Source of the DNA: Xylogone sp. PMI_703 | Lineage: Eukaryota; Ascomycota; Leotiomycetes | NCBI GenBank assembly: GCA_021399445.1 | Contig: JAJTUQ010000004.1 | Location: 4,774,001 to 4,838,000 of the forward strand | Direction: 5' to 3' | Length of the DNA stretch: 64,000 nucleotides | In this document: positions 50,981 through 61,027 of the stretch, piece by piece | Numbering within the stretch: position 1 is the stretch's first letter | Layout of the letters: each line of letters opens with the position of its first letter | Translations under genes and position numbers: made by a program | Notes under the pieces: generated by a model | Databases searched by the model: none | The model's input: the letters and a program-made list of their open reading frames with translations, nothing else | Told to the model about the DNA's origin: nothing

Positions 50981-52706
50981 CTATAGATTAATATCTTGCA
51001 TCTTCTCTAAGACATTTTCAATGTAGCGTACCCCTATTGTGACGCCATCTTCATCTGTAACATCTAACCCGAACCCTTGATCATCTTGATTTTCACCATT
51101 TCCTGTATCCAAGCATCGTAAGCAAAGAAGCACAATATCACTATACCGCTTCCCTAATCGAGAGGGCAGCTCAGTCATGGCGAGCTCTTCAAACCGCAGC
51201 TTGTTTTCAGACGCGCTAACTTGGGCATGACCTAGCCATAATGAGTTGCCGATGGTCGAGGAAGATTCCCCGGTCTCAACATAATGTACGAATGATGTCC
51301 ATAGACCGATCTCCAAGAGGATGACTCCCAAACTATATATGTCATGTTGCATTTGATAGTTCACTTGCGGGTGTGTGCCTTGACGGCTCGGATGCCGATC
51401 TGATAGATGGCTGGTCAGAATAACTCTGAGAGATCATGAGATATCTTACATAGATTATGATCCCAGATATTATCTCCTCTTAGATAGGTATGCCCATCCT
51501 CAATTCGGAATTGCTCAAAACCTGCAAGGAATGGAGCTCCTATTTCTGAGTGTTCGTTTTTGAATACAATTATTGTCTCTGGTCGTATATTCTTATGCAC
51601 AAATTGGACTGTGTGTAGAAAGAGAATGGAGCTAGTCAGTCTTTTTGCTAGGTCTAACCGCTCATTGAGGGGGTAAGGGGTTCCCGAAAGAAGAATGCTT
51701 CTTAAACTCTTAGGATTGGAGATCTGAGGAGGGATGTTGAAGACGAATTTATAATCGAAGCAAGATGATTTGTTCAAGCGCGTGATCTTCATGACCCCAC
51801 GACACCTCAAAAGGCCAAAGGTGAATGGGTCAACTTCTGCTAGAATGCGAGCTAGATTTCGAACTTCTTTGAGGGTCTGGTTGGGATTAGCCGTGGGATT
51901 AGAGACCATTGTGTCGATGAGAACTATCTCATTGATCTCTTGTAGGACGGATATCTGCGCTGAAGAATAGCTGATACTTGATAGATTTAAGTCAATATCA
52001 TCAATCCAGATAGACCTTTGATCTTTGGCGTCTCCTTCTCGTCCAGATCTCACCGCGTCTCGGATTCCTTTTGCAGCTGCTATAATAGGAATCTGTTGAC
52101 GCTCTAGTCTCTGCTGTTGCTCATGAAGTCCTTCATCTATGTTACCAATCGACATCTGCATGATCAAAATCCAAGTCGGGTCATATCTTGCCTGCCACTT
52201 CTCAATATCGTCCAAAATTTGATAGAGTGTGCTCTTCTTGAAGACGTATTTCATCTTCTTCGAGACTCCCATTTCGCTTATACCTTTCATTCCTGTTACA
52301 ACATTCCGGTCATTATTCTTCGAGTTGCTATCTTTTGAGCTTCCGTATTCTCGTTTCTCACCGAGCATTTGGCCAATGGTTAAACTAGCTGTCTTGAGCT
52401 TCCCTTCAAGCTGAGAAAGCACATGCGATTGCATATCCTGCAGCTTTCTGTCCAAGCTGCCGGCTATTTTCTTCATAATTTCAATTTGAGTCTCTACCTT
52501 AACCCAGTTACTCTCAATTGAGACCAATAGCTCGGCTGCCTCTTCTTGTGCATGAAGGTAGGTACGGCATCTTTTAACGAATTTGTTGCCATATCTAATT
52601 GTAGTTGTTGTCAGCGACTCAGCCTGGCCCGCACAACAATGCCTCGCACTCACTTGAGACATTGATCCGCGAATGCGACAACGGCGAGGGCTGTCCCAGG
52701 ATCCAT
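50981..52706 (-). CDS. HeLo-like N-terminal domain fused to a pseudokinase
   Basis: Three exons: 52706..52654, 52594..51450 and 51399..50981, with 59- and 50-nt introns; 538 aa. Exon 1 gives the typical HeLo/MLKL-like opening MDPGTALAVVAFADQCLKYG. Helices follow to about residue 215 (AELLVSIESNWVKVETQIEI, FKKSTLYQILDDIEKW). A kinase fold follows from about residue 280, but the catalytic residues are lost. The HRDxKxxN loop reads HKNIRPET (about 348-355), so the catalytic Asp, Lys and Asn are all replaced, and the DFG position reads AGF. Family knowledge: HeLo bundles (HET-S, HELLP) permeabilise membranes and are homologous to the MLKL killer domain. So this is a candidate MLKL-type execution protein. 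It is divergent from a kinase-WD40 gene, 347 bp apart. Domain assignment of the N-terminus is by pattern only. Confidence 0.75.
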
Positions 52707-53053
52707 GGGAATTTGTTAAGAAGCTATTGACAAAGTAGTTGAAAACGGTTCCGATAACAGAGGAAGCATGGTTAACCAGTCTCGCGAGGCTGGCTGGGAT
52801 GCTGTTCGTTTGCCACGTTTGATCAACCTAGGATGAGGCCAAAAATAGAACTTCAAAAGCGGAGTGTCGACGAGGCTTAACAATTCACATCACACCATCA
52901 GTAAATGACTTATTATCTAACCATAGCCATACATTAGTACTATCCGTCCAGATGAAACGACCTATTTCATCGGTGCTATAGAGATTGAGATATAGTGCCC
53001 GCTTGAATGCTCGCATAGCGGCACAAGGCTGTGCTTGAGACTTCTCTTTGCAC
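52707..53053. promoter_or_regulatory. Shared divergent promoter of the pseudokinase and kinase-WD40 genes
   Basis: The two start codons lie 347 bp apart, back to back, so both promoters must be here. No named element was recognised. Co-expression is inferred from the layout only. Confidence 0.55.
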
Positions 53054-55561
53054 ATGATGACTGCCCCATCTGATATTAAGCATTGGAAGATTAATGCAAC
53101 AATCTATGAAGACCGTGTGGAGGAAACGCATTTTATGACGGATCCCGCCAGGAATATCAGACGGAGGCCTTATACGAAAGTATGGAGAGTCGAGCATCAC
53201 CTAGGTCGCGGGAGCTTTGGAGACGTGCGCCTTGAAAAGGACTCAGTCGATGGGAACGTAAGAGCGGTAAAAAGAATTGCAGGAGGGGGGATAAATTTAA
53301 ACGATGATAGATATCAGCAAGAGTTAAAGGCGTTGTTGGAGTTTTCGAAGCCCAAGGCAAGCCAATAATGAGTGAAATTATTTCCAGCATGCAAACTGAT
53401 ATCCAGTCAGTCTAAAGAGGCTGCCGTGTTTGTAGAATTTTATGGTTGGTTTCAGTTTGGGCCTGATATATTCTTTGCTATGGAATACATCCCTCTTGGA
53501 GACCTAGAAGAGAATGTGAACAGATACTCTGGCAAAATACCAGAAGTTGAAGCACGAGATATTACTGAACAGATACTTTCGGGATTGGAGATTATGCACG
53601 CCGAGTCATTTGCACATCGTGATCTTAAACCGCAGGTAACAGATACTACATATGCCAGCTTCAGCTATATGCTAATATTTGTATGATGTAGAACGTTTTA
53701 GTAGTCCATGGGCCCCCTGAGTGGTGGATTAAGCTTGCTGATTTTGGATTAAGCAAGAGATTAACTGGATCCACGGCATATCGAACGTTTGGTGGTACTC
53801 AGTATTACATGGCCCCCGAAATCCTAGACACAGCGAGCGAGGAATATACTAACGCCGTCGATCTATGGGCGGTTGGATGCATTACGTATCGATTAGTTAC
53901 TGGTATTGTTCCGTTTCTCAAAGTAAAAGATGCATTGAAGTATTGCGAGGATAAGTCTTTATTCCCAAACGGCGCCCTTCATGAGAACGGAGTTAAGAGC
54001 TTGTGCGCTAGGTTCATTAAAGAGCTTCTTGAAGCGGATCCTCAACGACGGATTTCAGCTTCGCAAGCTCTGAACCATGAATGGATTCTCACAGGTAGGT
54101 CGAATACTCCTTCAACAATATTATTTTATATATCGTCATCGTAGCCATAATCTAACCGGCCTATGCACAGTCTCTAATATGCAAAACCAATCAGTACAAC
54201 TTTTACATGCGGATCCAGAAAGCTCACGGTCTTTTGACTCTTCCGTATCTAGTCTAAACTACAATACGAATACTCATGATGGCCTAAAATCACATATTCA
54301 ACCTTTGTTGGGACAGACAGAGGATCCGGAACTTCACTCAGAAGCCTATTCTGTATCTGACAATCATTTACCAGCCGCTTCAAATTACGCAAGACCTGAA
54401 CAAAACCCAGCACCTAGAATTGAGGACCATCAAAGTTCCACAAGAGATAAAGCAACGTCACCAGCGCAAGAATCAGACGGTGTGAGCTCACCGCCTAGTA
54501 ATAAATACTTAACTTCACTGCAACCATCCCTGAATAATAGAAACTCATCGCCACAGTCTGAATTCAAAAGGCTCATTGCTCAGGTTCGGCGAGACGTGAT
54601 CCCAAAACCTATATTGAGGCCCAAAGGAGAGAGTAAATTACTACGCAAGTTTGAAGGACATACTGACTTGGTGTGTTCCGTGGCATTCTCTCATGACCGT
54701 ACAAGGATAGTGTCAGCTTCAAATGATAAAACTGTCAGGATCTGGGATGTAAAGACAGGTGCTGTTCTGCTAAAGTTTGACCGGCACACTACCTCTGTGC
54801 GATGTGCTACCTTCTCGCCTGATAGCAGGACAATAGCTTCAGGATGCGATGATACAATCCTGCTCTGGGATCCGGCCTCGGGCACTATTCTCAACAGGCT
54901 CCAAGGACCTACAGATGGAGTGGATTCGATAGCATTCTCACCAGATGGGACCAAGATAACAGCGTCGGGAAGTTATTATTCCAAAAAGTCGGCCTCGAAG
55001 GACAACGAGATTTCAATACGACTCTGGGATGTAGCAACTGGTAGCATTTTGAAGAGCTTTCCAGGATACAGAAGAACAGGGAATGCTGTGGCTTTTTCAC
55101 CTGATGGTACGAAGATAGTTTCAGGGTGCTCTGACTACGTGGTCAGGGATTGGGATACAACAACTGGGAATGTTCTACACGAGTTTAAAGGGCACGAAAC
55201 TACAGTGACATCCGTGGCCTATTCTCCTGATGGTGCTAAGATAGCGTCGGCTTCACTGGATAATACAGTACGAATTTGGGATGCGGCAACTGGTGCAATG
55301 TTGCTGAAGTTTACGGAGCACACATGTTGGGTGGTTTCTGTAGCCTACTCACCTGACAGTACTATGGTGGCTTCAGCAGCAGTCAATGTATTTGGAGTAG
55401 TCGATAATACTGTCCGGCTCTGGGATGCGTCAACTGGCACTGTTATACGGAGACTTGATCATCCCTCAGGGGTACACTCTATAGCATACTCTCCTGACGG
55501 CAGAATGATAGTCTCAGCGTTAGCAGATTCGACGATCTGGCTCTGGGATATAATAAACTAA
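53054..55561 (+). CDS. Ser/Thr protein kinase fused to a seven-repeat WD40 domain
   Basis: Four exons: 53054..53356, 53411..53635, 53692..54094 and 54171..55561; 773 aa. Intron 1 (53357-53410) uses a GC donor (AAG then GCAAGC) and is needed, because read-through stops after six codons. The kinase domain is intact: GRGSFG 51-56, K73 in AVK, Glu90 in helix C, HRDLKPQN 170-177, DFG 193-195, APE 217-219, and it ends near residue 308. A disordered linker of about 155 residues follows. Seven WD40 repeats cover about 465-773, enough for one closed propeller; repeats 3 and 6 carry insertions (around YYSKKSASKDNEIS and VNVFGVV). WD40 arrays in fungal NLR-type receptors act as sensors, so this could be a sensor kinase. 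It is head to head with the pseudokinase gene. The partner and ligand are unknown. Confidence 0.85.
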
Positions 55562-59209: not shown

Positions 59210-61027
59210 TTGGTTTCCCCCTTTCGAGATGGTCCTCTCGTCCGCCCCATCAAACCGTTTGGGACAGCGTTTCCCCCTCTATGTGCCTGCCATCACACCA
59301 TTTATCAACTTGCGTCAGGGATGAGCAGGAAATGGACACCTCTCCTCGATGGTCTTACAGATACCATTCTGGAGATTCTGAAGATTTCGAGGACGGAACT
59401 CTGCTCAGTGCTCATCGGCGTAAAGGGAGAGACGTACGCCTCCGCGTTCGGATTCCCTGATGGTGGGCGGCCAGAACGTATCACCGCAGATGAAGGTGAA
59501 CGTGTCTTTGCTTCATTCTCTCTTTTTAAGATTTTCATTTCTACCTCAGTCTCATTGATGATTGACAAGTTGTCCGCTAACCCCGATCCAACAAATAAGT
59601 TTAGTCGACTTCACGGTGTTTGGACGACCACTTTCACAGAAATATTCAACCAACACTGCGAAAACTTTCACCTTCGCAGTCTTGCTGGAAACCCAACTGT
59701 TCGGGAGATCGTCCATCATTTCAAGGGACCATGCGACATAAACCATCTCCTATTATCTCCAGAGAACAGTCCCATTCTTTCCAAAAATGCTTTCCTCGAA
59801 ACAATATCCCAATACACACGAGACACCCGTCAGAATATCGCTCAATCTGAATATTCGAATGCAAATTATATCTTGCTTGCCCTCTTCATTGAGGCCGTTT
59901 CGGGACAATCGCTTGCTGAATTCTTGAAGCAGTATATTTTCGACCCCCTTGAGATGCACCATACATACCTGAGCCCTGAGAAGCTGAAGGCGGCACCACA
60001 AGCACAACGAGCACAACCACACCAAGTGTCTAGTAATGGCAGACGTCAAGTTATTCGAGTTGAGGAAGGCCTTTTCCTCGCCGATACTGTGGAGATCTCT
60101 ACCATGGGTTGTTATATCTCTATTAAAGATATTGGCAAATTTTTAGATATGGTGATTAGGGGATTGAATGGTACCCCCGTCAATTCTAGATTCGACCAGG
60201 AGTTTGTTGAATCCCTCTTCATTCTGAAACATGGTTATTCAAGTCTCGGCCTTCTAACTACCACTGATGGAGATTTACCTGGTAGTCATTCTTTGAATAG
60301 GTTGATATCAACCCAAAACGAGTCCTCCGAATCATCAAAGTATGTCTTAGGCAAGACGCGTGATAACAAAAATATCGACGCATATTACGTGGCTGGATGC
60401 GGTACTGGCTGGCTTCACACAATCTACTTGCTACCGAAGCAGCGCACGTTTATTGTCGTAATGACGAACACTTGGGGGCCCCTCGACACGTCGGATATTG
60501 TCTCTCGTCTTTATCTCCAGGAGATGTGTGACCTTATTCCTGCCAAGATCGATGACCCAACATTCTCCTGCAGTCCAGAGAGATATGGAAACGGAACTGA
60601 GTACCAGCGATACAGGGCACACTACATTTGGCTAGCGAATAAAATGTACCAGGAGAACTCTGCTGTTCTACGAAACTTTGAGCGTAGTGACTTCTTGCTA
60701 GGTACACCAACTACAGACCGCCCTAATGCTACAGGCATTTTTGCCAATAGTAGAGCCAAGCAACGCCTACATATATTTGACCTCGGTGGTATCTTAGGGG
60801 TGCGCTTGGAGGGAGATGGCAAGACCTCAAAGAACATGAGATTCGTACGCACTCTCAAGGGATTTAGGATGTGTTCATACCCGCGTGGCTCCTTGTCCCT
60901 AGGCATAGATTGTTTTGGAGACTGGCGAAACTTGGAGTTCGGTTTCGAAGAGGATAAAGGGGGAAATATTGCCAGATTCACTAGGGAAGGAGTCAACATG
61001 GTAGATATATTTACAAGAGTTCGATAG
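59210..61027 (+). CDS. Beta-lactamase-like serine hydrolase
   Basis: Intronless, 605 aa. The serine beta-lactamase/penicillin-binding fold is shown by the SxxK motif SLFK at 104-107 and the YxN motif YSN at 215-217, followed by the typical LLALFIEAVSGQSLAEFLKQYIFDPLEMHHTYL segment. A third-motif candidate is GCGTGW, around residue 400. Fungal members include esterases, transesterases (for example in polyketide tailoring) and D-aminopeptidase-like enzymes, so the reaction is not predictable. About 150 C-terminal residues form an extra domain (GVRLEGDGK, FGFEEDKGGNIARF), as in D-aminopeptidase-like members. A start at M38 (59321) is possible, since residues 1-37 look unconserved. No signal peptide is clear. 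Confidence 0.82.
   Translation: MVSPFRDGPLVRPIKPFGTAFPPLCACHHTIYQLASGMSRKWTPLLDGLTDTILEILKISRTELCSVLIGVKGETYASAFGFPDGGRPERITADEGERVFASFSLFKIFISTSVSLMIDKLSANPDPTNKFSRLHGVWTTTFTEIFNQHCENFHLRSLAGNPTVREIVHHFKGPCDINHLLLSPENSPILSKNAFLETISQYTRDTRQNIAQSEYSNANYILLALFIEAVSGQSLAEFLKQYIFDPLEMHHTYLSPEKLKAAPQAQRAQPHQVSSNGRRQVIRVEEGLFLADTVEISTMGCYISIKDIGKFLDMVIRGLNGTPVNSRFDQEFVESLFILKHGYSSLGLLTTTDGDLPGSHSLNRLISTQNESSESSKYVLGKTRDNKNIDAYYVAGCGTGWLHTIYLLPKQRTFIVVMTNTWGPLDTSDIVSRLYLQEMCDLIPAKIDDPTFSCSPERYGNGTEYQRYRAHYIWLANKMYQENSAVLRNFERSDFLLGTPTTDRPNATGIFANSRAKQRLHIFDLGGILGVRLEGDGKTSKNMRFVRTLKGFRMCSYPRGSLSLGIDCFGDWRNLEFGFEEDKGGNIARFTREGVNMVDIFTRVR

Follow-up and report, generated by a model that had tools for sequence, protein, structure and literature searches.

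Can a fungal kinase gene and the pseudokinase gene lying head-to-head with it form a death switch of the kind that RIPK3 and MLKL provide in vertebrate necroptosis? The question is raised by a gene pair in a 64,000-nucleotide stretch of Xylogone sp. PMI_703 (contig JAJTUQ010000004.1, here C20, positions 4774001-4838000; hereafter the window), a fungus placed in the Leotiomycetes incertae sedis with a genome of 50.1 Mb. One gene of the pair encodes a predicted N-terminal helical bundle followed by a pseudokinase, and the other encodes a Ser/Thr kinase followed by WD40 repeats. We found that this layout recurs within the genome and in other fungi, and we favor, with a probability of about 0.58, a reading in which the kinase activates a predicted bundle-pseudokinase executioner, giving a death module of MLKL type that is gated by a kinase and has interchangeable sensors. 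This reading is favored because of the architecture of the two proteins, their linkage, their co-inheritance and a kept residue in the activation loop of the pseudokinase; phosphorylation and killing by the pair are putative activities. A sequence-only reading of the window had likened the pair to MLKL and RIPK3, and its interpretation as a whole is partly supported.

The two genes were modeled on the DNA and compared with the public proteins of Xylogone sp. PMI_703. The minus-strand gene corresponds to P0001, publicly named 'HET-s/LopB domain protein', and the acceptor of its third exon is that of the annotated P0001, which fits the DNA. The plus-strand gene corresponds to P0121, publicly named 'WD40-repeat-containing domain protein'; the spliced model matched it at 100% over the searched part and was equal to it in length (773 amino acids). 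The first intron of the kinase-WD40 gene (window positions 53357-53410) is of the rare GC-AG type, with which the public protein agrees. The coordinates, the strands and the divergent gap given in the sequence-only reading were all confirmed on the DNA and the gene models (Table 1). The kinase was described there as intact and fused to a seven-repeat WD40 domain, and motif reading bears this out, as the G-loop, the VAIK lysine, HRD, DFG and APE are retained and the seven PF00400 stretches are preceded by a Ser-rich linker (judged by eye).

Searching the genome with the window pseudokinase exon returned one close relative (35% identity; C20:1515324-1516451, plus strand), and searching with the window kinase returned a relative at C20:1513514-1514193 (minus strand) that adjoins this second pseudokinase divergently, forming pair p. 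In Pfam scans the genome showed 17 places with DUF7580, one of them below the cut-off, and eight HeLo matches in seven places, and the scan for kinases gave 140 matches that merged to 109 loci, with the best 124 of 223 candidates scored. Six genes join a HeLo or window-type bundle to a pseudokinase, namely w (the window gene), p, a, b, d and f. A head-to-head kinase gene was present at four of the six, w, p, d (C25:560569) and f (C12:5438716), and genes a and b were without a kinase neighbor. The divergent gaps are 347 bp in w, 679 bp in p, 495 bp in f and about 730 bp in d, the last read from frames. No head-to-head kinase was found at the other DUF7580 places (0/13) or at the HeLo-only places (0/3), where the nearest kinase match lay 11.6 kb away on the same strand, a control count that rests on the 124 scored candidates and from which a kinase beside a control may have escaped.

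The architecture category was defined after the window pair had been seen, and the following P values are guides, not formal tests: four of six by chance had P between 3e-9 and 6e-6 over the assumptions made (9e-8 to 6e-6 with 250 kinases assumed), and Fisher's test of 4/6 against the 0/16 controls gave p 0.002. Dropping the window gene left three of five (P 5e-7 to 1.5e-4 over the whole assumption range; Fisher 0.0075), and dropping both w and p left two of four (P 9e-5 to 4e-3). Chance neighborhood is an unlikely cause of the pairing given the difference from the controls, and both the layout and the fact that it recurs are well established. Pfam scans of the neighboring genes found kinases and no NLR domain among the families listed, distant NLRs lying outside the search. 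Near pair f, another kinase (C12:5444549-5445346, plus strand) is located about 3 kb beyond the downstream side of the HeLo-pseudokinase gene.

The pairing extends to other fungi. Relatives were taken from the best 120 of 179 and of 1228 pseudokinase matches and the best 120 of 4275 kinase matches, and contigs, taken as shared when length and organism agreed, and locus tags were compared by eye, orientation being known in Xylogone only. A kinase relative shared the contig in at least 8 of 21 NCBI-sourced relatives of the window pseudokinase outside Xylogone and in at least 1 of 31 further ones, making at least 9 of 52; these counts are lower bounds, with a kinase list tuned to the window kinase, and the misses are not evidence of absence. 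Adjacent locus tags were seen in at least five fungi: two strains of Pseudogymnoascus (V494_08234/08235 and V502_00200/00199), Phialocephala subalpina (PAC_08503/08504), Cadophora sp. M221 (IFR05_011018/011017) and Endocarpon pusillum (GJ744_001725/001724). The tags are three apart in Cadophora gregata (ONS95_001499/001496), both genes lie on one 47-kb contig in Helicocarpus griseus, and only a long contig is shared in Thelonectria olida (724 kb) and Stipitochalara longipes (1.35 Mb). The genome search suggested with the sequence-only reading found the pair at four of six loci in Xylogone and on the same contig or as neighboring genes in at least nine other fungi. Among 13 stretches of viral contigs searched there was no relative, and the prokaryote genomes searched (60 stretches) yielded one locus, a bacterial phosphatase-kinase by its frames and no relative of interest.

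Kinase and pseudokinase distances matched closely across 11 pairs (Mantel r 0.92; 0 of 10,000 permutations as high). Together with the linkage, these distances suggest that the kinase is a dedicated partner. Both trees part eight pairs from those of Xylogone p, Endocarpon and Stipitochalara (pseudokinase 100/99, kinase 89/92). The group of eight comprises Xylogone w, Pseudogymnoascus, Phialocephala and Cadophora (Leotiomycetes), Helicocarpus (Eurotiomycetes) and Thelonectria (Sordariomycetes); the group of three, within which the trees are less resolved, joins Xylogone p to Endocarpon, of the Eurotiomycetes, and to Stipitochalara, of the Leotiomycetes (Helotiales). Not all kinase gene models are complete, P0131 and P0134 being partial. 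Because the split common to both trees cuts across species classes, the kinase-pseudokinase pair seems to have been duplicated, or moved, as one unit.

We compared the partners of the four Xylogone pairs. The six pseudokinase proteins are mutually related (pairwise E 2e-3 to 3e-113). The w and p kinases are 39% identical, but the d and f kinases share no more than a generic similarity with them: the w kinase was not among the 36 matches of the d kinase, and the f kinase had three matches, itself included. In a kinase tree of 22 rows, w/p-type partners grouped in a single clade (94/93) that excluded d and f; the latter two sit on very long branches, and their exact position is unsure. For this tree, 14 control loci of the same genome were submitted, four of which (L016, L017, L021 and L061) gave no usable row. 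The four partner kinases thus represent three lineages, w/p, d and f. All four retain the catalytic Lys, the HRD Asp and DFG, with HRD varied to HKD in d and HGD in f and an exon frame of p reading HRDLKPQ. No partner kinase is a near duplicate of its pseudokinase; the idea that a kinase was recently duplicated in tandem to yield the pseudokinase is rejected because of the short, weak similarity of the partners (9/36 residues) and the differing kinase lineages.

The sequence-only reading had the partner as a kinase-WD40 protein, which holds for the window pair and is not general, as the C-terminal module varies between pairs. Within Xylogone it is WD40 in w, a zinc-finger-like cysteine pattern (by eye) in p and none recognized in d, and in f ankyrin and Sel1 repeats lie in the next frame, which is probably part of a single gene with the kinase. 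Elsewhere we found SH3 in Cadophora sp. M221 and a ubiquitin-like module in Helicocarpus, and precomputed domains gave SH3 in C. gregata, WD40 in Pseudogymnoascus and Thelonectria and TPR in Endocarpon. The window kinase-WD40 gene has its closest relative (68-69% identity) at L027/L028 (C21:3314500-3330000), where no pseudokinase gene is adjacent; this relative has an F-box gene on its upstream side and a gene with a HET domain (PF06985) on its downstream side, and the executioner that it serves may be another one. The partner-kinase family has a fourth member about 70 kb before the window (L029/L030, C20:4699000-4712000); the frames listed around it include no pseudokinase neighbor, and the scanned frame has no WD40.

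Table 1. Features of the divergent gene pair and a neighboring gene, in window positions
Feature	Position	Strand	Details
Helical-bundle and pseudokinase gene (P0001, 538 amino acids)	50981-52706	-	Exons 52654-52706, 51450-52594, 50981-51399
Predicted N-terminal helical bundle, residues 1-204, brace-like last helix	52036-52706	-	AlphaFold2 model; interrupted by intron 1
Pseudokinase domain, residues 209-538	50981-52023	-	
HRD-equivalent, His-Lys-Asn, catalytic Asp lost	51589-51597	-	Alignment
DFG-equivalent, Gly-Phe-Glu	51514-51522	-	Alignment
Thr387, activation-loop position, candidate phosphoacceptor	51487-51489	-	Alignment
Shared divergent upstream region, 347 bp	52707-53053		Between the two genes
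Kinase-WD40 gene (P0121, 773 amino acids)	53054-55561	+	Exons 53054-53356, 53411-53635, 53692-54094, 54171-55561
Ser/Thr kinase domain	53183-54092	+	PF00069 on three exon frames, first below cut-off; HRD 53615-53623, DFG 53740-53748
WD40 domain, seven repeats	54623-55558	+	PF00400, 7 stretches
Beta-lactamase-family serine hydrolase gene, ordinary fungal neighbor	59210-61027	+	PF00144

The kinase-fold domain on the minus strand had been called dead, and the alignment agrees, with HKN in place of HRD and GFE in place of DFG. The HRD Asp is replaced in 228 of the 229 pseudokinase relatives with a residue there and retained in one; gene b reads HKG at this site, and DFG too is lost from the pseudokinases. 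The Thr387 position is kept. All 35 aligned sequences, the window's included, have Thr there, and in the wider alignment Thr (214) or Ser (12) occupies it in 226 of the 227 sequences with a residue, 5 of the 232 being gapped. The AlphaFold2 model of the window protein predicts the order bundle, brace-like helix, kinase fold, and the kinase-fold similarity extends to human MLKL (4mwi). By its predicted fold the protein has an MLKL-like architecture, with an N-terminal bundle, a linking helix and a C-terminal kinase-fold domain whose catalytic residues are lost. Since the kinase fold of P0001 reaches within a few residues of the C-terminus in this model, a HET-S-like amyloid tail would have no room.

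Helices of the window bundle were predicted at residues 3-33, 35-64, 67-102, 128-163, 168-178 and 187-204. In six of six proteins examined, the window protein among them, residues 1-20 are more hydrophobic than residues 21-200. Other bundle-pseudokinase genes of the genome carry PF14479 (HeLo) clearly (a, 1.1e-44; b, 7.9e-25; and, above the cut-off, d, 3e-25, and f, 9.7e-20), and a profile built from these four domains matched HET-s crystal structures (2wvo, E 2.7e-13). Two further families were considered for the window-type bundle and set aside. Abi_2 matched 2 of 44 sequences (E 0.007, and E 0.0016 below the cut-off), which was taken as chance; PF17111, whose older name we take to be HeLo-like N-terminal domain, matched 5 of 44 (best E 0.029), too weakly to be used, and its genome scan did not include the six genes.

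In the reading we favor, the C-terminal module, WD40 in the window kinase, would sense a ligand or non-self cue and activate the kinase, which would then phosphorylate Thr387 or a neighbor in the pseudokinase activation loop. The phosphorylated pseudokinase would free the bundle, the hydrophobic first helix of which would insert into the membrane, and the hyphal cell would die an altruistic or incompatibility death. Such a switch would work by RIPK3-MLKL logic, with a sensor arm that is neither an NLR nor amyloid-based. We give an even chance to a broader proposal of fungal kinase-gated necroptosis, in which HeLo/MLKL-type pseudokinase executioners would be served by dedicated head-to-head kinases of several independent lineages, with sensors swapped like NLR repeats and the unit passed across classes, so that a RIPK3-MLKL-type circuit would exist outside animals, independent of amyloid templating.

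Several observations weigh against this interpretation, most of them concerning the bundle. The sequence-only reading called it HeLo-like; a helical bundle is indeed present in the AlphaFold2 model, but the HeLo assignment did not hold up as well. PF14479 had no match in the main exon of the window gene at E <= 1, nor in P0001 or any of the 35 aligned sequences at E <= 0.01. A profile of 12 window-type bundles aligned by hhalign with the true HeLo domains of genes a, b, d and f at a probability of 73.5% (E 3e-5) over 38 columns, whereas other or larger bundle alignments, one with an N-terminal piece from 113 of the 232 relatives, gave about 3%, with a score of 22 where reversed controls reached 12-14. 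A separate model of residues 19-212 (predicted local distance difference test, pLDDT, 74; predicted template-modeling score, pTM, 0.60) found no clear fold in the PDB and no MLKL or HET-S chain among the rows listed, a result that excludes nothing, and the window-bundle profile had no match among PDB sequences. With this weak support, we describe the window bundle as HeLo-type and not as a proven HeLo domain. In addition, shared species history alone could produce a distance correlation such as that between the kinases and pseudokinases.

The linkage and co-inheritance data would also fit a pair working like toxin and antidote: the kinase, by binding or phosphorylating the executioner, would hold it closed, and the executioner would be freed once the kinase is lost or diverted. 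We consider this unlikely, as two of the six genes (a and b) lack a kinase neighbor, which argues that a linked antidote is not strictly needed, and the varied, sensor-like C-terminal modules suit a trigger better than a constant inhibitor. Linkage and differing modules would fit just as well a guard model without phosphorylation, in which the kinase recruits or oligomerizes the pseudokinase, or watches it as a decoy, and catalysis is incidental. MLKL-type proteins can be driven by oligomerization, which counts for such a model. The retention of the catalytic Lys, HRD Asp and DFG in the four partner kinases, and of the activation-loop Thr/Ser in the pseudokinases, argues against it, and we place it slightly below the antidote pair in likelihood.

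An ordinary co-regulated signaling pair with no role in cell death, its bundle serving as a scaffold or membrane anchor, would suit the weak tie of the window bundle to HeLo, and we know of no death phenotype for the window protein. This appears improbable, since the sister pairs d and f carry true HeLo domains and all six pseudokinases are related; moreover, the layout resembles the fungal sensor-executioner gene clusters described in the available part of PMC12881547. In the established mode, of which HET-S/NWD2 is an example (available parts of PMC12881547 and PMC10197012), an NLR triggers the fungal HeLo protein by amyloid templating, and if it operated here the kinase neighbor would be unrelated to the switch. 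On the evidence of the protein itself and its neighboring genes, the lack of space for an amyloid tail after the kinase fold and the kinase neighbor at four of six loci make this highly improbable.

HeLo fusions with kinase or pseudokinase domains are already in print, and the linked kinase gene is, provisionally, the seemingly new element. No kinase partner gene is named in the available portions of PMC12881547 (a 2025 review), PMC9815663, PMC10197012, PMC9119436 and PMC12258605, and the kinase-pseudokinase pair is not described in the literature searched, which was covered mostly at the level of titles and abstracts, with most subscription journals and preprints outside its scope. As far as the available text of PMC12881547 goes, fungal gasdermin clusters contain protease sensors fused to WD40, TPR, ANK or kinase-like domains. 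One DUF7580 locus (L036:1441-2658), where the kinase-like domain is followed by a subtilisin-like stretch (motifs by eye; Pfam gave DUF7580 only), recalls these protease sensors. If the favored reading is true, the RIPK3-MLKL design extends beyond animals or evolved at least twice, and the pairs are new candidate genes for fungal allorecognition or antiviral death. It would also make testable in yeast and Podospora a long-standing question, whether kinase control of MLKL-type proteins is ancient or convergent.

The fungal pair resembles the RIPK3-MLKL system in combining an active kinase with a putative executioner made of an N-terminal helical bundle, a brace-like helix and a pseudokinase, and in having a phosphorylatable residue in the pseudo-activation loop. 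It differs in that the fungal kinase carries WD40, SH3, ubiquitin-like, TPR or, probably, ANK modules and the genes are paired head-to-head, and the likeness to MLKL is one of predicted domain architecture. Plant MLKL proteins with a HeLo-type bundle and a pseudokinase were reportedly described by Mahdi et al. in 2020 (a study cited in PMC12881547), and we know of no dedicated linked kinase partner for them. The same fusion of a HeLo-type bundle to a pseudokinase appears in the available part of the report on Pm13 (PMC10951266). As in the HET-S/NWD2 and HELLP/PNT1-type HeLo clusters (PMC12881547, available part), a putative sensor gene adjoins the executioner gene, and HeLo itself is present in sister pairs d and f; unlike in those clusters, the executioner has a pseudokinase in place of an amyloid tail, and its neighbor is a kinase in place of an NLR. 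With the fungal gasdermin clusters of the same source, the pair would share a modular sensor-executioner logic with interchangeable repeat domains, whereas in those clusters proteases activate and the executioner is a gasdermin.

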